Origin: Patescibacteria group bacterium
Lineage (GTDB): Bacteria > Patescibacteriota > Minisyncoccia > Moranbacterales > UBA2206
DNA: 44,858 bases
Assembly (NCBI GenBank): GCA_022709735.1
Contig: JAKLIG010000006.1
Location: 1-44,858 of the forward strand
Direction: 5' to 3'
This document shows positions 6,698-24,827 of the stretch, in pieces. The position numbers were made by a program, and so were the translations under genes. The stretch's first letter is position 1. Every line of letters begins with the position of its first letter. The notes below the pieces were generated by a model. The model did no database searches. It worked only from the letters and a program-made list of their open reading frames with translations, and had not been told where the DNA came from.

Positions 6698-8245
6698 ATG
6701 AAGCATAAAACAAAAAACAAAATAAAGGGCTCGGCACTGGCATATGCGTTGATTATTATGGCAGTCGTTTTGATAATTCTCACTTCCATGCTCAATTATA
6801 TCGTGAGTCAGATTAAGTTCAGCGCTAATCGGTCAGAAAAAGAACAAGCTTTTCAAATAGCGGAAGCGGGAATATATTTTTATCGTTGGTATCTGGCGCA
6901 TGAGACAGCTGGAAAAACAGCGCGAGAAGTGGATGATTTTTGGCAAAATGGAGATCCTCTTGGGGTGGGCTCTGCGTATGAAAAAGATTTCAGTGATCCC
7001 GAAGGGGGAGTGATTGGGAGATATCAAATTGAAGCAGAGCGTCCCGATTCCGGCTCAACAATTGTTATTGTAAAATCTACCGGTTGGACAAACGACGAAC
7101 CGGATATGAAAAGAACAGTGCAAGTGAGATTTCGCCGACCGTCTTGGAGTGAATACGCAGTTTTAGCTAATGATTTTATGCGATTTGGCCAAGGGACGGA
7201 AGTTTTTGGAAAAATTCATTCCAACAAGGGAATCCGTTTCGATGGGGTTGTTCATAATATCGTTTCAAGCCTCATGACTACTTTTGATGATCCTGATCAT
7301 GGTGGCGGAAATGAATTTGGCGTGCACACGCATGTCAATGCTCCACCGTCTTCAGGAGTAAATAATAATTATCGTCCATTGGAAGCGCCGAATAATCCAG
7401 TTCAAACTCGAAGCGATGTATTTCTGATTGGTCGTGAATTTCCAGTACCGGAAGTAAGTTTTACCGGCATTTCTTCTGATTTAGCTTTCATGAAAACAGA
7501 GGCGCAATCAGGCCATGGGAGATATTTTGATAGCAGTGGATTGGGTCGGCAGATTATCTTAAAAACAAACGGGACTTTTGATGTTTATAAAGTGATGACC
7601 GTTGATTCTGACACTAATGGCATAACCGGCTATGAAGGAACAAGAAATTCAAATGGTTCTGGCGATTCTTGCATTGCGCCTACAACTACAGAGGGACCGA
7701 ATACTCAATGCAGAAACAGAACAAGTGGCTCAAGGTGTTATTGCAAATATTCTAGTTATGAAATTCCAAATGGAGGAATTATTTTTGTCGAAGATAATAT
7801 TTGGCTGGAAGGAACCATAAATTCAAGAAAGATTTCTGTTGTGGCGGCGGATATCGTTAGTGGGGCAGAGGCGAATATTTATGTGGGGAATAATAATATC
7901 CTATATTCTAACTTTGACGGGAAAGATATTCTTGGAATTATCGCGGAAAAAGATGTCGAGGTTATAAAAAACAGTCAAAATAATCTCATAATCGACGGAG
8001 CTTTTCTCGCTCAAAAAGGTCGAGTAGGAAGAAAAGATTATGGTTCTAGTGATCATAAAAATTCTATAACCTTAAATGGTTCGATGGCAACCAATCTTAG
8101 ATATGGCTTTGCTTGGACAAATGGAATATCGAATTGGGGCTATGAAGACAGGATTTTGAATTTTGATAACAACCTGCTTTATTATCCACCACCATATTTT
8201 CCGACCGGAACAGATTACTCAATTGATTTATGGGAGGAATTATAA
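6698..8245 (+). CDS. PilX/GspK-like pilus assembly protein with large ectodomain
   Basis: A basic leader MKHKTKNKIKG is followed by a hydrophobic helix (SALAYALIIMAVVLIILTSML) and the amphipathic stretch EKEQAFQIAEAGIYFY that is typical of PilX N-termini. Mature position 5 is not Glu, as in GspK-like tip pilins. The 515-residue protein has a long ectodomain with a Cys-rich patch (four Cys at roughly 326-345) and glycine/asparagine-rich beta segments (IYVGNNNILYS, GAFLAQKGRVG) of a possible beta-helix. It belongs to the same operon, two bases after the previous stop. Function at the pilus tip is inferred from family and context. Confidence 0.75.
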   Translation: MKHKTKNKIKGSALAYALIIMAVVLIILTSMLNYIVSQIKFSANRSEKEQAFQIAEAGIYFYRWYLAHETAGKTAREVDDFWQNGDPLGVGSAYEKDFSDPEGGVIGRYQIEAERPDSGSTIVIVKSTGWTNDEPDMKRTVQVRFRRPSWSEYAVLANDFMRFGQGTEVFGKIHSNKGIRFDGVVHNIVSSLMTTFDDPDHGGGNEFGVHTHVNAPPSSGVNNNYRPLEAPNNPVQTRSDVFLIGREFPVPEVSFTGISSDLAFMKTEAQSGHGRYFDSSGLGRQIILKTNGTFDVYKVMTVDSDTNGITGYEGTRNSNGSGDSCIAPTTTEGPNTQCRNRTSGSRCYCKYSSYEIPNGGIIFVEDNIWLEGTINSRKISVVAADIVSGAEANIYVGNNNILYSNFDGKDILGIIAEKDVEVIKNSQNNLIIDGAFLAQKGRVGRKDYGSSDHKNSITLNGSMATNLRYGFAWTNGISNWGYEDRILNFDNNLLYYPPPYFPTGTDYSIDLWEEL

Positions 8246-8275
8246 TAAAATAAAGGATATAGCAGATAAAAAATT

Positions 8276-9358
8276 ATGGCCATTTGGAATAAAAAAATAA
8301 TCAATTTGAAAAGTGGATATTTTAGTTTGGATATCAGTGATTTGTCAGTGAAAGTTTTTCAGTTGGAAAAAAATGGCGCGCTGGATTCGATAAGAAGTTT
8401 TGGAGTGAAAGAAATTCCTTTGGGTTGTATTGAAAATGGAAAAATAATTAATCGGGAAAAAGTAATAGAGATAATCAAGAACTTATTACAAACTTCCGGA
8501 CCGAAAAAAATCAATACGAAAAAAGTGATTTGTTCTTTGCCGGAATCAAAAGTATTCTTGCGCACGGTGGCTATTCCAGAAATGAATGAGGGAGAGGCAA
8601 CAGAAGCAGTTAAGTGGGAGATTGAAGCTAGCATTCCTTTGTCAGTTGAACAAGTTTATTATGATTGGCAATTTTTGGATAAAATTGAAGGAAAGCAGAA
8701 TGTTTTGACGGCCGCCGTAGCCAAGGAATTTGTGGATGAATTGATGGGAGTGCTCAAAGATTGTGAACTGGAAGTTTATGGACTGGAAATGGAATCAATT
8801 GCTTCAATCAGAAGTTTGATTTCAAAAGATGCCAAGCCGGAAGAAGTTTTTCTTATTGTCGATATTGGTTCGAATAAAACTAGTTTTACTGTTTGCGAAG
8901 GAACCACCCCATATTTTACCTCCAGTATTCCCTTTTCTTCTTCCGGTATAACAGATGAAATTTCCAGTCGAATGAATTTGGCGAAAGAAGAAGCCCAGAA
9001 TTTGAAATTCTCGCAAGGAATAGAAAATTCTTCCGGGAATAATTCTGTTTTAAATTCAATTGCTCCTCTTTTGGAAAACCTATCAACAGAAATAGAAAAA
9101 ACTATTGATTTTTACCAGAATATGCCGAAAACAAAAGCGGAGATAGGAAAAATTATTCTGATTGGCGGAGGAGCTAATCTCAAAGGACTTTTGACTTATT
9201 TGAAATCCAAGCTTTCCAAGGAAATATTTTTGGGCGATCCATGGATAAATTTAAATTTTGGAAAAAAAATACCCGATATAAGCCAGGCAGATTCAGCTCG
9301 GTATGCTGTTTCTGCTGGACTGGCGATGCGGGGAACAAATTATGGAAATAAAAATTAA
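8276..9358 (+). CDS. pilM: Pilus assembly actin-like ATPase PilM
   Basis: Cytoplasmic actin-fold protein that binds the N-terminus of PilN and links the inner-membrane alignment complex to the motor. The phosphate-1 region YFSLDISDLSVKVFQLE, the second phosphate loop FLIVDIGSNKTSFTV and the adenosine motif IILIGGGANLKGL are visible. Its 360 residues match the family. The pilN start lies inside its 3' end (17-base overlap), so PilM and PilN are translationally coupled. Confidence 0.93.
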   Translation: MAIWNKKIINLKSGYFSLDISDLSVKVFQLEKNGALDSIRSFGVKEIPLGCIENGKIINREKVIEIIKNLLQTSGPKKINTKKVICSLPESKVFLRTVAIPEMNEGEATEAVKWEIEASIPLSVEQVYYDWQFLDKIEGKQNVLTAAVAKEFVDELMGVLKDCELEVYGLEMESIASIRSLISKDAKPEEVFLIVDIGSNKTSFTVCEGTTPYFTSSIPFSSSGITDEISSRMNLAKEEAQNLKFSQGIENSSGNNSVLNSIAPLLENLSTEIEKTIDFYQNMPKTKAEIGKIILIGGGANLKGLLTYLKSKLSKEIFLGDPWINLNFGKKIPDISQADSARYAVSAGLAMRGTNYGNKN

Positions 9359-15450: not shown

Positions 15451-18006
15451 ATGCAAAAAGAAGCTAGCGCAAGAATTAAAATAAATAAACTTCTTGAGGA
15501 ATCAGGATGGCGATTTGAGGATGATAAAAAAGGCAAAGCCAACATTAAACTTGAGCCTGGAGTAAAATATTCGGAATTAGGGGATGATTTTGAACATGAA
15601 GCCCACGGCTTTATTGATTTTCTTTTGCTCGACAAGGATGGTCGTGCGCTGGTTGTGGTTGAAGCGAAACGCGAATCAGTTGATCCACTTTCTGCCAAGG
15701 AACAAGCGAGAAATTATGCTCGCAATGCTGGTGCTCGTTTTGTAATTCTCTCAAACGGAAACATTCATTATTTTTGGGATACTAAACACGGCAATCCAGA
15801 CACAATTTCTCGTTTTCCTACTCAAGACTCAATCACGCAATATGAAAAATATACACCCAATTCCGAGGAGCTAGTGAAAATAAGCGTGGATGAAAATTAT
15901 ATTATTGAAACGCAAATTCCTGGAGCGACAAAGGATCCTGATTTTCAGGATGAATCAAGGCGAGCTGAATTTTTGAGAAATAATAATCTTAAACAACTTC
16001 GCCCCTATCAAGTGCAAGCCGTGAAAGCCTTGCAGACATCTGCCAAGGAAGGTAAACAAAGATTTTTATTTGAAATGGCCACAGGCACAGGCAAGACTTT
16101 AATTTCGGCGGCCGTAATAAAATTATTTCTGAAATCAGGAAATGCTCGCCGAGTTTTATTTTTAGTTGATCGTTTGGAATTGGAAGATCAAGCACAAAAA
16201 GCTTTTGTGCAATATTTGGGCAAAGATTTTCGCAGTGTGATTTATAAAGAAAGCAAAGATTCTTGGCAAAATGCTAGTGTGGTAGTTTCCACTACTCAGA
16301 CTTTTATGGCAGGGGATAGATATAAAAAAGAATTTTCTCCAACGGATTTTGAAATGGTTATTTCCGATGAAGCTCATCGTTCCATTGGCGGAAATTCACG
16401 AGCAGTTTTCGAATACTTCGTGGGCTATAAACTTGGACTAACTGCCACGCCAAAAGATTATTTGAAAGGTTTTGATGGTGAGGGAGCAGATACACAAAGA
16501 GAATATGAGCGCCGATTGCTTTTAAATACCTATACGACTTTTGGTTGTGATTCCGGTGAGCCAACTTTTCGCTATGATTTAGTTTCGGGAGTGAATGATG
16601 GATTTTTAATCAATCCCATTATTGTAGATGCGCGAACAGACATCACCACTGAACTTCTTTCAGAAAAAGGCTATGCAGTGCACACCACAACCGAGGAAGG
16701 CGAAAATGTGGATGAAATTTTCAATGAAAGGCACTATGAAAGAAAATTTTTCAACGAAGAAACTAATATTGCTATGTGCAAAGCCTTTATTGAAAATAGT
16801 CTTTTTGATCCAGTGGCCAAGCAAAATGGAGTAGAACTTTTTGGAAAGTCGATTGTGTTTTGTGTTTCGCAAAAACACGCCGCGAGGATTACTAACATTC
16901 TCAATAGATTTGCTTTTGAAAAATGGCCAGAACAATATGGCGAATCTGATTTTGCGATGCAAGTCACTTCGCAAGTTTCCAATGCGCAACAAATGACCAT
17001 CAACTTTTCCAATAATATGCTAGGCGGAAAAGTGAAAAATCCAGCTGGTTATGATTCGGGAAAAACTCGAGTGGCAGTGACGGTCGGAATGATGACCACA
17101 GGTTATGATTGTCAAGATATTTTAAACATTGCTTTAATGCGTCCAGTCTTCAGCCCTTCTGACTTTGTGCAGATAAAAGGGCGAGGCACAAGAAAATATT
17201 TGTTTGAATATAAGGATTATGAAAATAATGAAACTATTGCGATTGCCAAAGATCGATTTAAGTTCTTTGATTTTTTTGCTACTTGTGAATATTTTGAAAA
17301 TGAATTTCCCTATGATGAAAAAGTAAAACTTCCGCAAATTAAAAAAGTGCCAATGCCAGAAACGACTGATGGTATAAAATCTACGCAGGGAGAATTTGTA
17401 GATGAAAATGGAAAGAAAATTTTTAAAGGTTTGATTGATATCGCAACGCCTGATGAAGTAGCTTCGATTTCAGAAACGCCAGTTGGCACCGAGGGGATGA
17501 GAATTGACCGAGAAGGATTTCGGCGAGCGGTGGAGGAAGATGTGCTTGGAAATGAAACACTCAAAAATATGTGGGAAAATGGCGATACCGAAGAAGCGGA
17601 AGATTTTGCTAAAAAACAAATTTTTGATAAACCAAAATATTTCTTGAATCTTGATAAGATCAGAAAATTATTCGATATTGATCGTCGCATTAGTGTGAAA
17701 GAATTTTTGCAGGTGGCTTTTGGAGACAAAGATAAATTTGAAATGAAAGATGAGCTTTTGGAATCGGAATGGGAAAAGTTTATGGAAATTAATCCAGTTG
17801 ATCAGGAACATTATGCTCCAGTGAAAATGTTTTTTAAGGCCTATGCCACCGATGAAAAAGTGCGAGAAATTATCACTAGTCGCCAAACTGGAAGATTTAA
17901 CACAGAATCATCTTTTCACTTTGATGAATATCAAAAATTGAATGGCTACAAAGCGACAGTTCCGCAATATGTGCATGATTATGCTTATCATCTAACAAAT
18001 TTATAA
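15451..18006 (+). CDS. hsdR: Type I restriction enzyme R subunit (HsdR)
   Basis: Motor and nuclease subunit of a type I restriction-modification complex. The N-terminal PD-(D/E)xK nuclease motif is FIDFLLL…VVVEAKRE (Asp56, Glu71, Lys73). The SF2 helicase follows with motif I MATGTGKT (209-216), DEAH (306-309) and GLTATP (329-334). Motif VI is QIKGRGTRKY. The C-terminal helical region contacts the methylase complex. 851 residues fits the shorter EcoEI-like R subunits. All catalytic residues are intact. The hsdMS gene begins 4 bases after the stop. Confidence 0.94.
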   Translation: MQKEASARIKINKLLEESGWRFEDDKKGKANIKLEPGVKYSELGDDFEHEAHGFIDFLLLDKDGRALVVVEAKRESVDPLSAKEQARNYARNAGARFVILSNGNIHYFWDTKHGNPDTISRFPTQDSITQYEKYTPNSEELVKISVDENYIIETQIPGATKDPDFQDESRRAEFLRNNNLKQLRPYQVQAVKALQTSAKEGKQRFLFEMATGTGKTLISAAVIKLFLKSGNARRVLFLVDRLELEDQAQKAFVQYLGKDFRSVIYKESKDSWQNASVVVSTTQTFMAGDRYKKEFSPTDFEMVISDEAHRSIGGNSRAVFEYFVGYKLGLTATPKDYLKGFDGEGADTQREYERRLLLNTYTTFGCDSGEPTFRYDLVSGVNDGFLINPIIVDARTDITTELLSEKGYAVHTTTEEGENVDEIFNERHYERKFFNEETNIAMCKAFIENSLFDPVAKQNGVELFGKSIVFCVSQKHAARITNILNRFAFEKWPEQYGESDFAMQVTSQVSNAQQMTINFSNNMLGGKVKNPAGYDSGKTRVAVTVGMMTTGYDCQDILNIALMRPVFSPSDFVQIKGRGTRKYLFEYKDYENNETIAIAKDRFKFFDFFATCEYFENEFPYDEKVKLPQIKKVPMPETTDGIKSTQGEFVDENGKKIFKGLIDIATPDEVASISETPVGTEGMRIDREGFRRAVEEDVLGNETLKNMWENGDTEEAEDFAKKQIFDKPKYFLNLDKIRKLFDIDRRISVKEFLQVAFGDKDKFEMKDELLESEWEKFMEINPVDQEHYAPVKMFFKAYATDEKVREIITSRQTGRFNTESSFHFDEYQKLNGYKATVPQYVHDYAYHLTNL

Positions 18007-18010
18007 AATT

Positions 18011-20425
18011 ATGAATAATGAAACAAAAAGACATATTGATGGTGCACGCCAAGTGCTCGTGGGAGTAGTGCCTAATCCAACTTCGCAAATTGATCAAATC
18101 ACCAATGCTTTGATTTATAAGTTTATGGATGATATGGATCAGTCGGCTATCAAACAAGGAGATGAGCCGTCTTTTTTTGTGGGGGATTTAGAAAAATATG
18201 CGTGGACACGGCTAATGGATGCGCGAATGGGAAATCAAGAAAGAATGAATCTCTATTCAGAAGCTTTGATGAAATTTTCCGAATCAAAACAACTTCCAGA
18301 ACTTTTTCGAGGAATTTTTAAATCTGCATTTTTGCCATATCGTTCACCGGAAGTGCTCGGATTATTTTTAAAAGAAATTAACTTTTTTGATTATTCTCAT
18401 CCCGAAGAATTGGGCAATGCCTATGAATATTTGCTTTCCATTATGTCCTCTCAAGGCGATGCGGGGCAATTTAGAACACCAAGGCATATTATTGATTTTA
18501 TTGTGGATGTCGTTAGTCCAACGGCCAGTGATAAGGTGCTTGACCCTGCTTGTGGCACAGGAGGATTCTTGGTTAGCTCCTACAAACATATTTTAGAGCA
18601 ACATGACGGGATGGATGATCCACAGAAAAAAGAAAAACCGCTCACTCCTGATCAACGCAGAAATTTGATGAATAATTTTGAAGGTTATGATATTGATCCA
18701 ACAATGGTGCGCATTGCGCAAGTGAATATGTATCTGCATCAATTTAAAAATCCAAAAATTGTCCAATATGATTCGCTTTCAATGGAAGAAAGATGGGGAG
18801 ATAAATTTGATGTAATCTTGGCTAATCCTCCCTTTATGTCGCCAAAAGGTGGAGTGAAAACGCATAGCAAATTTAGCGTGCAATCCAGTCGCTCAGAAGT
18901 TTTGTTTGTGGATTATATTATGAATCATATTCGGCCAAAAGGTCGAGCGGGTATCATTGTGCCAGAAGGAATTATTTTTCAATCAGGTGGCGCTCACAAA
19001 CAATTGCGAAAAAATTTAGTGGAAGATGGACTTTATGCTGTCGTGAGTTTGCCGTCGGGTGTATTTGCACCATATGCAGGAGTGAAAACTAGCATATTGC
19101 TATTTAATAATGAATTAGCTAAACAAAAAACAGAAATATTATTTGTTAAAGTTGAAAACGATGGTTTCGATCTGGGTGCTACAAAGCGACCAATCAGCAA
19201 GAATGATTTACCGACAGCTTTGGAAATTCTTAACAAGTGGAACACGGGAGAAAAGGTAGAAAAAAAACTGGCGGTGTATGTAGGAAAATCCAAGATTGCC
19301 GAGAATGGCGACTATAATCTTTCCGGTGATCGTTATCGCGTGGCGACCGATTACACCAACGCAAAATGGCCGATGGTGGAGTTGGGGAAAATTATTCATT
19401 TAGACTTTGGCGAAAGAATTACAAAAAACAACAAACGAGGTACAAAATACCCAGTTTACGGCGGAGGTGGAGAAAGTTTTAGAACAGACGAATTTAATCG
19501 CGAGAATGAATATGTTATCGCACGGTTTGCAATGTCGGAACATTGTGTTCGTTTTGTGGCGGGCCAATTTTGGATGATGGATTCCGGTGGGACTTTTTCA
19601 ATCAAACCCGAATACCAAGACAGATTAAGTAAAGATTTTGTTGGCAAGATTTTATTAAGTCGTCAGGAAGATATTTTCATGTGCGCGCGAGGGGGAGCAC
19701 AAAAAAATTTGAACACTGATCATTTTTACGAATTAAAAATTCCTTTTCCACCTCTCGAAATCCAAGAGCAAATCGTGGCGGAGCTGGATGGCTATCAAAA
19801 TATAATTTCTGGTGCCAAGCAGATCACCGCTAATTGGAAACCAAAAATTGAAATTGATCCGAAGTGGAGAAGAGTGACTATCGGAAATCTTTGTGATCTT
19901 TATAATGGTAAAGCATTTAAGCCAAGTGATTGGAAAAAAGAAGAGTCTGGTGGCTTGCCTATAATTAGAATCCAAAATCTTAATAACGATAAATCAGAAT
20001 TTAATTATTTTACTGGAAAAATTAATAATCAGGTCATTGTAAATAATGGAGATCTTCTATTTTCTTGGTCGGGCTCTCGTGGAACTTCTTTTGGCCCACA
20101 TATTTGGAAAGGTCAAAAAGCTATTTTGAATCAGCATATATTTAAAGTTATTCACAAAAATGATATTTTAAAAGAATTTTTCTATTTGATGCTAAAGGAC
20201 GCGGTAAAAGAAGTTGAGGAAAATCTTCATGGGGGAGTGGGCTTAGTTCACATAACAAAGGGAAACTTAGAAAGAATTGAGATACCGCTTCCATCTCTCG
20301 AAATTCAAAAACAAATCGTGGAAAAAATAGAATCCGAGCGCGCATTGGTGGAATCTTCTAAAAAATTAATTGAAATATACGAACAAAAAACCAAAGATGT
20401 AATTGAGAAACTTTGGGAAGAATAA
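18011..20425 (+). CDS. Fused type I methylase-specificity subunit (HsdM-HsdS)
   Basis: One 804-residue polypeptide carries what are usually two subunits. Residues 1-445 are HsdM: helical N-terminus, SAM-binding motif I DPACGTGGF (178-186) and catalytic motif IV NPPF (272-275), giving N6-adenine methylation. Residues 452-804 are HsdS, with two target recognition domains (about 452-580 and 619-760) each followed by a conserved spacer helix (PLEIQEQIVAELD and PSLEIQKQIVEKIE). There is no frameshift or stop at the junction. The fusion fixes a 1:1 M:S ratio, whereas classical complexes are M2S1. Target sequence unknown, presumably bipartite. Confidence 0.93.
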   Translation: MNNETKRHIDGARQVLVGVVPNPTSQIDQITNALIYKFMDDMDQSAIKQGDEPSFFVGDLEKYAWTRLMDARMGNQERMNLYSEALMKFSESKQLPELFRGIFKSAFLPYRSPEVLGLFLKEINFFDYSHPEELGNAYEYLLSIMSSQGDAGQFRTPRHIIDFIVDVVSPTASDKVLDPACGTGGFLVSSYKHILEQHDGMDDPQKKEKPLTPDQRRNLMNNFEGYDIDPTMVRIAQVNMYLHQFKNPKIVQYDSLSMEERWGDKFDVILANPPFMSPKGGVKTHSKFSVQSSRSEVLFVDYIMNHIRPKGRAGIIVPEGIIFQSGGAHKQLRKNLVEDGLYAVVSLPSGVFAPYAGVKTSILLFNNELAKQKTEILFVKVENDGFDLGATKRPISKNDLPTALEILNKWNTGEKVEKKLAVYVGKSKIAENGDYNLSGDRYRVATDYTNAKWPMVELGKIIHLDFGERITKNNKRGTKYPVYGGGGESFRTDEFNRENEYVIARFAMSEHCVRFVAGQFWMMDSGGTFSIKPEYQDRLSKDFVGKILLSRQEDIFMCARGGAQKNLNTDHFYELKIPFPPLEIQEQIVAELDGYQNIISGAKQITANWKPKIEIDPKWRRVTIGNLCDLYNGKAFKPSDWKKEESGGLPIIRIQNLNNDKSEFNYFTGKINNQVIVNNGDLLFSWSGSRGTSFGPHIWKGQKAILNQHIFKVIHKNDILKEFFYLMLKDAVKEVEENLHGGVGLVHITKGNLERIEIPLPSLEIQKQIVEKIESERALVESSKKLIEIYEQKTKDVIEKLWEE

Positions 20426-20428
20426 AAT

Positions 20429-21196
20429 ATGGAGGAAAAAGAAAGAATAGATAATGTTATAGCAGAATTTGAAAAAAAGGCAATTGGAATTGCTACTAAT
20501 TTTGCTGACTCTGATTATGAAAAGTATGAATCTGCTAGAAATGATTTGCTTTCTGAACCATTGCTTCACCCCATAATTCCCGATTGGATAATTAAGTACA
20601 GATGGGGAGGTCGATTTAGAAGTTTTATGCAACAGATGTCGGGGCAGTATGCACCGAGAAGAAAATTTATTTGGGATTCAATTCATGAATTAAGACAATT
20701 TGTTGAAAAAGGCGAAGGCCAGCCTGTTTCTCTTTCATTTGATGAAATTAAACACGCGATTAAAACTGCTAGCCTAGAGGGTCTGTGGAAAAAAATTCAT
20801 TCGAGGAGAGATAAGGATCCGGAAGGGGCGATAACGGCTTCGAAAACAATGCTTGAGTCCACTATGAAATATATTCTTGATGAGTTAGGTGAAGAATATT
20901 CAGAAAAAGAAGACATGCTAGATTTATATAAGAAAGTTTCCCAAAAACTTAATTTGAGTCCAGGCAATCATCATGAAAAAATATTTAAACAAATTTTACA
21001 GGGAGTATCATCGGTTGTTGTTGGATTTAGTTCTTTAAGAAATAAATATGGTGATGCTCACGGAAAAGGCAAATTATATGTTGGTCCGGATAAAAGGCAT
21101 GCGGATCTCGCAGTTAATCTATCCGGTACAATTTGTACATTTTTAATTGAAACCTTTAGGGTTCGCTCGGAAAAAACGATAAAGTCTAATAAATAA
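20429..21196 (+). CDS. Abi_C/HEPN-type abortive-infection protein
   Basis: 255 residues. The C-terminal part resembles abortive-infection C-terminal (Abi_C) domains: TASKTMLESTMKYILDE, and SSLRNKYGDAHGKG with the HEPN ribonuclease motif R-N-x5-H (Arg204, Asn205, His211). The N-terminal helical region (about 1-115) is unassigned. HEPN proteins of this type cut RNA when triggered and cause dormancy. It lies 3 bases after hsdMS in the same operon, so it may be a back-up effector if restriction fails. Motif seen; function inferred. Confidence 0.75.
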   Translation: MEEKERIDNVIAEFEKKAIGIATNFADSDYEKYESARNDLLSEPLLHPIIPDWIIKYRWGGRFRSFMQQMSGQYAPRRKFIWDSIHELRQFVEKGEGQPVSLSFDEIKHAIKTASLEGLWKKIHSRRDKDPEGAITASKTMLESTMKYILDELGEEYSEKEDMLDLYKKVSQKLNLSPGNHHEKIFKQILQGVSSVVVGFSSLRNKYGDAHGKGKLYVGPDKRHADLAVNLSGTICTFLIETFRVRSEKTIKSNK

Positions 21197-21932: not shown

Positions 21933-21995
21933 AAATAAAAATATCAAAAATAATTCAGGATGATTTCGGAGTTTATATTGAAATTACTAACTAAT

Positions 21996-22011
21996 TTAAT
22001 TACGTAATTAA
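21996..22011. promoter_or_regulatory. Right palindrome of the defence cassette
   Basis: TTAATTACGTAATTAA, a perfect 16-base palindrome, shares 14 bases with the palindrome at 15233-15252. It sits between the last cassette gene and the anchored nuclease gene. Confidence 0.65.
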
Positions 22012-22056
22012 TTACTTACAAAAAAATCTCAGAAAGGTGATTTAATTCGAAAATCT

Positions 22057-22611
22057 ATGTCCGCGGTTGAAAGTAAAAAATCAAAAATAATCATTATCAT
22101 TGGCGTCTTTCTTTTGGGAATCGCAATCGGGTTTGGGATTGGATTTGAATTTGGCCGAGAGAATAGGGTGACGAAGCCATTGGATAATTCGCAAGCCAAG
22201 AAAGATGTGTATGTCGGGGAATATAAAGTTTTGCGTGTGATTGACGGCGACACGATTGAGATTGAGGGCGGGGAGCGGGTGAGATATATCGGGATCGATA
22301 CGCCGGAAGTGGGCGCAAACGGAAAAGCGGACGAATGCTATGCTCAAAAAGCTAAGGAAAAAAATCAGGAATTGGTTTTGGGGAAAAATGTAGAACTAAG
22401 AAAAGATGTGAGTGATCGCGACCAGTATGGCAGGCTACTGCGGTATGTTTTTGTGGACGGGCTTTCCATCAATATTGAGCTGGTGCGTTTAGGGTTGGCC
22501 AAGGTGGCGAGCTTTCCGCCGGATGTCAGATATCAAGACGAAATTACCAGCGCGCAAAGCGAAGCCCGAGAGAAAAAATCCGGCTTGTGGGTTGCTTGCC
22601 CGCAGGAATAA
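22057..22611 (+). CDS. Membrane-anchored thermonuclease (SNase family)
   Basis: 184 residues. An N-terminal helix (about 10-30) anchors or exports a staphylococcal-nuclease domain. The catalytic set is present: Asp63/65 in VIDGDT, Arg76 and the VRYIGIDTPE block (Asp81, Thr82, Glu84), and Arg126 in DQYGRLLRYV. It would degrade DNA and RNA outside the membrane, which in CPR cells could supply nucleotides, since these cells depend on scavenging. It may also add to the neighbouring defence genes. It lies outside the palindrome-bracketed cassette. Confidence 0.92.
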   Translation: MSAVESKKSKIIIIIGVFLLGIAIGFGIGFEFGRENRVTKPLDNSQAKKDVYVGEYKVLRVIDGDTIEIEGGERVRYIGIDTPEVGANGKADECYAQKAKEKNQELVLGKNVELRKDVSDRDQYGRLLRYVFVDGLSINIELVRLGLAKVASFPPDVRYQDEITSAQSEAREKKSGLWVACPQE

Positions 22612-22669: not shown

Positions 22670-22701
22670 TTATCCTTAAATACTGGAGTTTTTAAGGATA
22701 A
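22670..22701. promoter_or_regulatory. Operator 1 upstream of the winged-helix regulator
   Basis: Arm ATCCTTAAATACT, spacer GG, then the reverse-complement arm with one mismatch; two further flanking bases pair (T70/A101, T71/A100 in the last digits). A TATGAT -10-like box follows at 22709-22714, so a bound protein would block the promoter of the regulator gene. Confidence 0.8.
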
Positions 22702-22759
22702 ATAAAATATGATAGAATTATTTAGAAGAGAATTGAACAAAAAATAAAGATAAATAAAT

Positions 22760-23068
22760 ATGCTGGCAAAAAAACGAAAATTTGAGCGAAAAATAAAAAC
22801 ACCCAAGCAGATGGAGCGTCATTTGAAAGGCATGGCTAATCATCACCGGATAGAAATACTTTTAATTGTTGATGAGAACAAGGGCATCACGCTAGACAAT
22901 ATCATTGAAATAACAAAAGCTAATGCCAAAACGATTGGGGAGCATACCCGGAGACTCCATCAGGCTGGACTGATCAATAAAAAATATCGTGGCCATTTTG
23001 TCGAACACGAATTGTCGCCTTATGGAAAAATATTCGTTCGTTTCCTCAAATCATTCAGAACAGACTAA
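22760..23068 (+). CDS. ArsR-like winged-helix transcription regulator
   Basis: 102 residues with a single winged helix-turn-helix: HLKGMANHHRIEILLIVDE, then recognition helix NAKTIGEHTRRLHQAGLI and the wing KKYRGHFVEHELSPYGK. There are no metal-binding Cys of the ArsR/SmtB type. The basic N-terminus (KKRKFERKIK) may add DNA contacts. Near-identical 28-base palindromes stand before this gene and right after it, before the hydrolase gene, so it most likely represses both itself and the hydrolase. Confidence 0.85.
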   Translation: MLAKKRKFERKIKTPKQMERHLKGMANHHRIEILLIVDENKGITLDNIIEITKANAKTIGEHTRRLHQAGLINKKYRGHFVEHELSPYGKIFVRFLKSFRTD

Positions 23069-23072
23069 ACTT

Positions 23073-23100
23073 ATCCTTAAATACTGGAGTATTTAAGGAT
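23073..23100. promoter_or_regulatory. Operator 2 between the regulator and hydrolase genes
   Basis: A perfect palindrome: arm ATCCTTAAATACT, spacer GG, exact reverse-complement arm. It differs from operator 1 by a single base in the right arm. It starts 4 bases after the regulator stop and ends 20 bases before the hydrolase ATG. Confidence 0.82.
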
Positions 23101-23120: not shown

Positions 23121-23663
23121 ATGAAAAATGCAATAATTTTACATGGAACCGGAGACAAGCCAATTGATTTCTGGTTTCCGTATTTGAAAAATGGATTGGA
23201 AGAACGCGGTTATGAAGTTTGGCTTCCAAGCCTTCCCAATCCCGAATTTCCTAATCGCGCTGAGTGGCTGCCGTTTCTTTTTGAAAATGGAAAATTTACT
23301 GAAGAGACAGTAATTATTGGACATTCTGCTGGTGCGCAAATAATTTTGAGTCTTTTGGAAAAGCTGGATGCGAAAGTGAAGCAGGTTATTCTTGTATCCG
23401 GTTATGCCAAAGCATTGCGAAAAAATATGGAAAGCGAAAAAAATGTCGATGATTATAATTGGGAAGCAATAAAACCAAAATGCGATAATTTTATTTTTAT
23501 AAATTCTGACAATGATCCTTGGACTTGCGATGACACGCAGGGCCGAATTATGTTTGATAATTTGGGCGGAATGCAAATAGTCCTTCATGAAGGGCACATG
23601 GGATCAAATTTTTATAATCAACCATATAAAAAATTCCCTTTACTTTTAAAATTAATTAATTGA
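23121..23663 (+). CDS. RBBP9/YdeN-family alpha/beta hydrolase
   Basis: 180-residue serine hydrolase. The nucleophile elbow is GHSAG (Ser69); the acid is Asp132 (or Asp130) in NSDNDPW and the His is His159 in EGHMG. The substrate is not predictable from sequence. Operator 2 lies immediately upstream, placing it under the winged-helix regulator. Confidence 0.88.
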   Translation: MKNAIILHGTGDKPIDFWFPYLKNGLEERGYEVWLPSLPNPEFPNRAEWLPFLFENGKFTEETVIIGHSAGAQIILSLLEKLDAKVKQVILVSGYAKALRKNMESEKNVDDYNWEAIKPKCDNFIFINSDNDPWTCDDTQGRIMFDNLGGMQIVLHEGHMGSNFYNQPYKKFPLLLKLIN

Positions 23664-23672
23664 AATTTTACC

Positions 23673-24827
23673 ATGGAAAATGCAAATATTAATTACTTGC
23701 AAGAAAATAAGATTGAGGCTCGAGGCAAAGAAATTCACGAAAAAGAATTGAACGAGAAACTCGAGATGATTCAATTTATTTATGCAGACGAACAATATCA
23801 AAAAGAAATTGAGAAAGAGCTAGCTCCAACTTCTTTTTATGATATTCTCGAGCGAGATACTGGGGTGATTTCTAAAATTAAGGATGAGCATGAAAGAATT
23901 TTGAAGGATGATGACCAGATTGCTGAAGATTTAGGCAAAATTAAAAATAAAATAAATGAGATTTATGCAAGAAAAAACGAAGATTGGAAAAAAGAAATAG
24001 TTCAGTTCTTGGGTTCGATTCACGAGAGGTTTAACAGAAAGGAAGATGAGAAAAATGTTAAGAAGGCAGGTATTTTTATTTATAATATAATAAAAAGCCG
24101 ACCAGATCTCATAAAGCATGGAATTGGAGAAGGTGGGGATGTTTTGGAAATTCATTTAGAAAAAATGTATAAACAAGAGGGACAAAATTTTACTTCCCAG
24201 AGTATAAAAAAATCATTTATTGAACTAGCGGAAATGATTGCTGAAAAGCATCTTGGAGTAAGCGATTTAGCTGCTAGATCATGGATTCTTGATAGCGGTT
24301 TGGTAGAAGCATTTGGATTTGAAGAAGTAGAAAGAACAGATAGTCTGAATCATTTTTCGACTTGGTGGCAATTTATTGATAAAAATGGGCAAATCGACAA
24401 AAAGCGTTTTGAACAGTTTACAAAAAACGGTAAACCTCCTCTTCAAGTGGTTTTGGCCAAAGTCAAAGTGGAAGATTTTTTGAAAAAATATTTACCGCAA
24501 GAAAAAAAAGGCAAAATTTTGCTCAAAGAATATTCTTTCAAAAACAAAGAGGCTTTGGAATTTAGAAAAATGTTTGAAACAAAATTCAATTCAATAAAAC
24601 CGGAGGAAATTGCTGACTTGTTTAGTGAAAGCAGAGTTTATTCGGAGTTTTATCAAAAAGGAATTTTCAACGAATTGATTGAATTTTTAGTTGAGATGAA
24701 AAAGAAGGGATATACTTATCGGCAAATTGAGAACATGAAAAGTGAAAGACTGAATGTGATTTCGGAAAAGTTGAAAAAAGTCCTAGATGCTAATAATTAT
24801 GTCGAAAAAGAAATTTTTATTCCATAA
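23673..24827 (+). CDS. Unknown 384-residue soluble protein
   Basis: No family recognised. It is highly charged and mostly helical, with coiled-coil-like N-terminal stretches (about 20-115) and a central block SWILDSGLVEAFGFEEVERTDSLNHFSTWWQF with conserved-looking aromatic residues. No signal, membrane helix or nucleotide motif. It follows the hydrolase by 9 bases and probably shares its transcript, so it too may be regulated by the twin-operator system. Confidence 0.75.
   Translation: MENANINYLQENKIEARGKEIHEKELNEKLEMIQFIYADEQYQKEIEKELAPTSFYDILERDTGVISKIKDEHERILKDDDQIAEDLGKIKNKINEIYARKNEDWKKEIVQFLGSIHERFNRKEDEKNVKKAGIFIYNIIKSRPDLIKHGIGEGGDVLEIHLEKMYKQEGQNFTSQSIKKSFIELAEMIAEKHLGVSDLAARSWILDSGLVEAFGFEEVERTDSLNHFSTWWQFIDKNGQIDKKRFEQFTKNGKPPLQVVLAKVKVEDFLKKYLPQEKKGKILLKEYSFKNKEALEFRKMFETKFNSIKPEEIADLFSESRVYSEFYQKGIFNELIEFLVEMKKKGYTYRQIENMKSERLNVISEKLKKVLDANNYVEKEIFIP

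Follow-up and report, generated by a model that had tools for sequence, protein, structure and literature searches.

A winged-helix gene enclosed by twin palindromes is a widespread and apparently transferable unit in Patescibacteria

A gene for a 102-aa winged-helix protein in a Patescibacteria genome lies between two near-identical 28-bp palindromes, which we call UP and DN. The same dyad-gene-dyad arrangement recurs in changing surroundings across Patescibacteria and so is not a local oddity; judged by sequence comparison, it is apparently a widespread, transferable, self-regulating module. The reading that we favor, and hold to be probable as a whole, is that the gene represses itself, that DN serves as its auxiliary operator, and that the unit is transferred as a module.

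The locus and its palindromes

The window, i.e., the whole 44,858-nt stretch that we analyzed, carries the unit downstream of a thermonuclease gene (Table 1). UP and DN differ at one base and start 401 bp apart; DN starts 4 nt past the stop codon of the 102-aa gene. Dinucleotide shuffles never reproduced the twin pattern (0/100) or any 28-bp dyad with at least 12 pairs (0/20), which ruled out a chance origin, and the sequence-only reading, which had described near-identical palindromes enclosing a winged-helix gene, was right as to both coordinates and the one-base difference. The window holds five other dyads, unrelated to these two. The 102-aa, hydrolase, and 384-aa genes lie on the same strand, separated by 52 bp and 9 bp, respectively; given the 9-bp gap, the last two are probably cotranscribed. 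Farther upstream, Type I restriction genes lie beside a protein with an abortive-infection C-terminal domain (Abi_C; 15451-21196), likely a defense island adjoining the unit, and an AT-rich palindromic stretch (21974-22027; core TTACGTAATTAATTAC) with short high-identity matches at many sites in other genomes of the genus is a separate dispersed repeat family.

Table 1. Features of the palindrome-flanked unit and adjoining genes in the window
Feature	Position	Strand	Remarks
Thermonuclease (SNase), upstream of unit	22057..22611	+	Pfam SNase 3e-23
Upstream palindrome (UP)	22672..22699	.	ATCCTTAAATACTGGAGTTTTTAAGGAT; 13-2-13, one mismatch, 12/13 pairs
Putative −35 TGGAGT	22684..22689	+	UP palindrome center, site positions 13-18
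Putative −10 TATGAT	22708..22713	+	18 bp past −35
Alternative putative −10 TAGAAT	22713-22718	+	Same promoter of 102-aa gene
102-aa ArsR/MarR-fold winged-helix protein, putative palindrome ligand	22760..23068	+	Pfam HTH_5, AlphaFold
Downstream palindrome (DN)	23073..23100	.	ATCCTTAAATACTGGAGTATTTAAGGAT; perfect 13-2-13, 13/13 pairs
180-aa RBBP9-like serine hydrolase	23121..23663	+	Pfam Ser_hydrolase 5e-12
384-aa protein, family unassigned	23673..24827	+	No Pfam or NCBIfam match

A search of the whole genome assembly (988 kb, 96.6% complete) found only one further copy of the palindrome, at C10:73869-73896 between rnhB and argS, 45 bp past the former and 91 bp ahead of the latter. Three copies genome-wide rule out a plain scattered repeat, the alternative raised alongside the sequence-only reading. 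Congeners lack the rnhB-argS copy: the gap in G003 keeps the argS promoter, and the window's genome carries ∼115 extra bases upstream of that promoter, palindrome included. The window's genome also has a second unit (C1:150330), whose protein is 62% identical and which has its own, different palindrome pair. As a separate observation, stretches in its argS (about 7500-7600) and rnhB (8225-8300) genes in L004, VIASEVKQSQ..SAPRNDE and CHPDPPTGGEGSRTNFNNSTSAGFFASAQNDKAFN, match dispersed repeats elsewhere in the genus and are apparent in-frame repeat insertions.

The winged-helix protein

The 102-aa protein scores 22.0 bits against Pfam HTH_5 (ArsR), exactly at the cutoff of 22, and 29.3 bits against NCBIfam HTH_metalloreg, whose cutoff is 55. 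Its AlphaFold model (pLDDT 83) has a predicted ArsR/MarR-type winged-helix fold and matches HlyU, SmtB, and CadC (E about 1e-4), MarR repressors, and the centromere protein AspA. The protein lacks cysteine; H21, H62, and H83 are invariant in the family and could be contacts of any kind. Profile searches matched winged-helix families only, with no Y1/HUH transposase or other catalytic domain found in the protein.

Autorepressors of the ArsR/SmtB and SdpR types (HlyU, SmtB, CadC, and SdpR) resemble the unit in having a winged-helix protein of about 100 aa and a dyad over the promoter, with autoregulation expected. However, the unit's protein scores under the NCBIfam metalloregulator and SdpR cutoffs, and the unit has a second dyad fixed at the 3′ end of the gene and no partner gene. 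The fold match to AspA of plasmid pNOB8, close in the predicted model (TM 0.79 on target) and accompanied by a weak sequence match, would suit a partition or DNA-coating protein that nucleates at the palindromes and spreads between them. We find this scarcely credible: ArsR and MarR repressors match equally well, a ParA-like partner was not noted beside the units, and the sites on the chromosome are not numerous and differ from one species to another.

Units across Patescibacteria

Of 94 related genomes, 33 encode relatives of the protein. Searching by palindrome pattern, we found pairs in two genomes of the same genus (G003 and G006) and in one of another family (G039), each enclosing a 79-80% identical relative; relatives at 54-65% identity, including that at C1:150330, are bracketed by another palindrome, ATTCTNNNATTCTNNAGAATNNNAGAAT. 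A scan of GTDB genomes added 80 loci, from Moran-, Nomura-, Uhr-, Lipton-, Kaiser-, Taylor-, Sung-, Levy-, and other Patescibacteria. Both UP and DN are present in 85 of 85 compiled nonredundant units from many Patescibacteria groups, a set that remained after a site-score cutoff that favors dyads (91 nonredundant loci before it); such scores are rare in the background. Start codons of the units were assigned by rule. Common to all units is a site consisting of AYNCYNANAWWCT plus its inverse, and C4, A9, C12, T13, A16, and G17 are invariant in UP sites. UP-DN spacings (307-520 bp, mostly 335) reflect gene length, and a reading in terms of helical phasing was set aside. More distant winged-helix relatives (L037-L043; 20-29% identity) frequently have just one dyad, ACTATTCTAATATAAATTAGAATAGT, which flanks the gene on one side.

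The sites accompany the protein, being present in 16 of 21 genomes with it versus 10 of 73 without (P = 1e-7), at 2-9 palindrome copies per genome; in eight genomes there are real dyads, yet no close homologue of the protein was detected. We found no description of the dyad-gene-dyad arrangement in the open-access literature, which is weak evidence of novelty.

Covariation of protein and site

We propose that the 102-aa protein binds the 28-bp dyad, in which AYNCYNANAWWCT occurs twice in inverted orientation. In any one unit, UP tends to resemble DN more closely than either resembles the sites of the nearest protein relative (54:21; P = 2e-4). Residue 60, in the predicted recognition helix (model helix 56-68), tracks half-site preference: 32 of the 33 proteins with S60 have ATTCT in all four half-sites, and proteins with G60 have half-sites AAACT or ATACT. 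L256 lies among the G60 proteins in the tree, yet it has S60 and all-ATTCT sites, having switched both independently. Since this covariation comprises only one to four independent switches, we regard it as a strong lead, short of proof, to such binding. One genome (G008) has two units with different palindromes (L045 and L046), plus solo sites similar to one or the other, the pattern that insulated regulator-site pairs would be expected to give.

Promoter geometry and the role of DN

UP is centered on the −35 hexamer (site positions 13-18), which is TTGAGA in 37 of the 85 units. A strong TATAAT-like −10 lies 4-9 nt past UP in 52/85 units, versus 2.8% at random positions, and past DN in 5/85 only (Fisher, 3e-15), making negative feedback the best reading. 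The commonest UP-to-ATG gap is 18 nt, which places the ATG about 6 nt past the −10, so that the mRNA of many units would be leaderless; the window's unit has a predicted 5′ UTR of roughly 40 nt. Bound at UP, the protein would block its own promoter. Where the sites lie, their pairing, and their covariation with the protein make such autorepression very likely; we hold no other step with as much confidence.

DN begins 1 or 4 nt past the stop codon or contains it (−16 and −7 classes), so that it lies at the stop in nearly all units; in the −16 class, its left half encodes C-terminal residues and TGA forms its center (L277 sequence). This position, together with a potential 14-bp hairpin (−15.7 kcal/mol), might suggest that the dyads act as RNA hairpins or as terminators where genes end. 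But a T-run is missing past DN in the window and in most units, and on that ground we rejected a terminator at DN; UP lies in a promoter, and the half-sites follow the recognition-helix residue; the hairpin explanation is highly improbable.

Alternatively, DN could be an ordinary regulon operator governing the promoter of the downstream gene. The hydrolase ATG lies 20 nt past DN, like the usual UP-to-ATG gap, and among the extra sites some are likewise followed by a −10, with the start codon at 20 nt (L237:1762). However, no −10 lies between DN and the hydrolase start codon, few DN sites elsewhere have one (see above), and the downstream genes are unrelated from unit to unit: tspO is the commonest, followed by helicase, mnmA, SWIM-domain, and serine hydrolase genes (families named by eye from sequence, except the window's hydrolase, assigned by Pfam). 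The same unit has other neighbors in the congeners G003 and G006, and the hydrolases beside four units are in part only distant relatives (30-34% identity; L047 alone, 80%). We consider a regulon operator decidedly unlikely. On account of these varying neighbors we also rejected a circuit dedicated to the RBBP9-like hydrolase; of the negative-feedback circuit put forward by the sequence-only reading, self-repression therefore stands as the best reading, with UP on the gene's own promoter, and dedicated hydrolase control does not. As no −10 follows DN in the window, the hydrolase and 384-aa genes, sharing the regulator's transcript, would be affected mainly by read-through.

Nor did the genome-wide site search, suggested earlier as a way to define a regulon, deliver one. 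Copies are few, and most solo sites separate genes with unrelated functions and have no consistent −10, so a coherent regulon is not supported, although some solo sites occupy orthologous places in several species of one genus. Solo sites, and the eight genomes with dyads but no close homologue, are not predicted by a simple regulon.

With neither promoter nor terminator at DN, we chose by exclusion to view it as a putative auxiliary operator of the same protein, which most likely would strengthen repression, either by looping or as a roadblock that keeps read-through out of the following genes (in the window, the hydrolase and 384-aa genes). In lac, the main operator O1 is at the promoter and the auxiliary operator O2 is about 400 bp downstream. 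The UP/DN pair is similar in combining a promoter operator with an auxiliary one about 400 bp downstream, but it brackets the regulator's own gene, and looping here is only proposed.

Transfer, junctions, and in-frame palindromes

A unit in L277 (Tagabacteria) is 89% identical in nucleotide sequence, over 340 bp, to one in L282 (a different Parcubacterium); on both sides the similarity stops within 2-3 nt of where the outer palindromes do, and the flanks are unrelated. L281 is 92% identical to L277 over 339 bp, ending at DN; its left side is cut by a contig end. Where two units resemble each other in DNA sequence, their flanks seldom do, and many of the exceptions listed involve L277, which has a second unit in its flank. 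The window's unit is 80% identical to that of G039, from another family, and 79-80% identical to those of congeners, versus 65% and 75-77%, respectively, for TsaD. We suggest that the dyad-gene-dyad, about 340-450 bp long, is passed on by descent and by transfer as a single module that comes to lie beside changing genes, its dyad copies supplying short homologies at which further rearrangement could occur. Named groups are intermingled in the winged-helix protein tree (35 changes), but good support is confined to 5 of its 82 branches, and we rejected it as proof of transfer; phage cargo was also rejected, as no relative was confirmed in IMG/VR. No clean empty site of the whole unit was found. 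By their flanks (87% identity) L257 and L270 are the same locus, yet their units are clearly different; L270 has an extra 201-aa gene between DN and tspO.

Palindromes also occur in frame within genes. In L215, L222, and L242, tspO contains one (QHPYILENVRMLR and variants), whereas tspO of L226, L238, L249, and L260 does not; mnmA carries them at two different places (L230 and L244). They are always in one frame (H-x-x-I-L-E/K-N/Y-x-x-M) and were seen only in genes adjoining a unit; none was seen in the window's genome. In L235, only the second half of tspO is present, and DN reads into it in that frame, the arrangement expected from a deletion between two palindromes. At the locus where G092 has a palindrome, a 577-aa gene, and a unit, G052 has just one palindrome, with no close homologue of the winged-helix protein; this case is weaker, because ∼300 bp by the junction are unaligned and a contig end lies nearby. 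Such junctions make recombination between copies credible. As for excision of the regulator through its repeats, also proposed from sequence, we saw no excised allele of the window's unit, but the junctions in relatives speak for such recombination. Genes separated by palindromes form cassette-like arrays in L277, L237, L235, and L051; in L277, an SNase gene is sandwiched by two palindrome-flanked units.

Genes for REP-associated tyrosine transposases (RAYTs) are flanked by two palindromes that coevolve with the gene (PMC2817692). The units are similar: a gene between two coevolving palindromes, solo palindromes in the same genome, and a transferable whole. They might then be a selfish system of this kind, in which the palindromes are mobile, the flanked gene is the master copy, solo palindromes are its offspring, mobilized in trans by some host activity (for example, a Y1 transposase), and regulation is secondary. 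Solo copies of the resident flavor, the in-frame palindromes in tspO and mnmA, the cassette-like arrays (L277 and L237), and Y1_Tnp genes in 20 of 25 genomes tested all fit. Yet a repressor-like DNA-binding protein without a catalytic domain takes the place of the HUH transposase; copies number 2-9, not over 100 per genome; UP and DN agree better in direct than in inverted orientation (59 to 11; P = 4e-9); and the palindrome is centered on a −35 box. Y1 genes are also present in site-less genomes (G016, G030, and G002) and absent from G024, which has a unit, and no target-site duplication was demonstrated. We judge this explanation unlikely. Rickettsia palindromic elements likewise lie in frame inside protein-coding genes, always in a single frame, but are about 150 bp, compared with 28-38 bp here, where the palindromes are confined to genes next to a unit and tied to a putative binding protein.

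Implications

Hardly anything is known of gene regulation and gene exchange in the ultra-small Patescibacteria. In the probably self-repressing units, sequence reveals the cognate operators of at least 85 regulators as well as a testable recognition residue, and the units join a standard promoter geometry (operator on the −35, leaderless start) to movement with clean edges. They are a ready operator-repressor set in which operator and element end coincide. More speculatively, and with rather low confidence, they may represent a class of minimal mobile element in Patescibacteria: a noncatalytic repressor gene with its own operators as termini, spreading when operator copies recombine or when a host transposase acts on it, forming arrays and seeding operators in coding genes. 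If that were true, regulation and mobility would share one DNA site.
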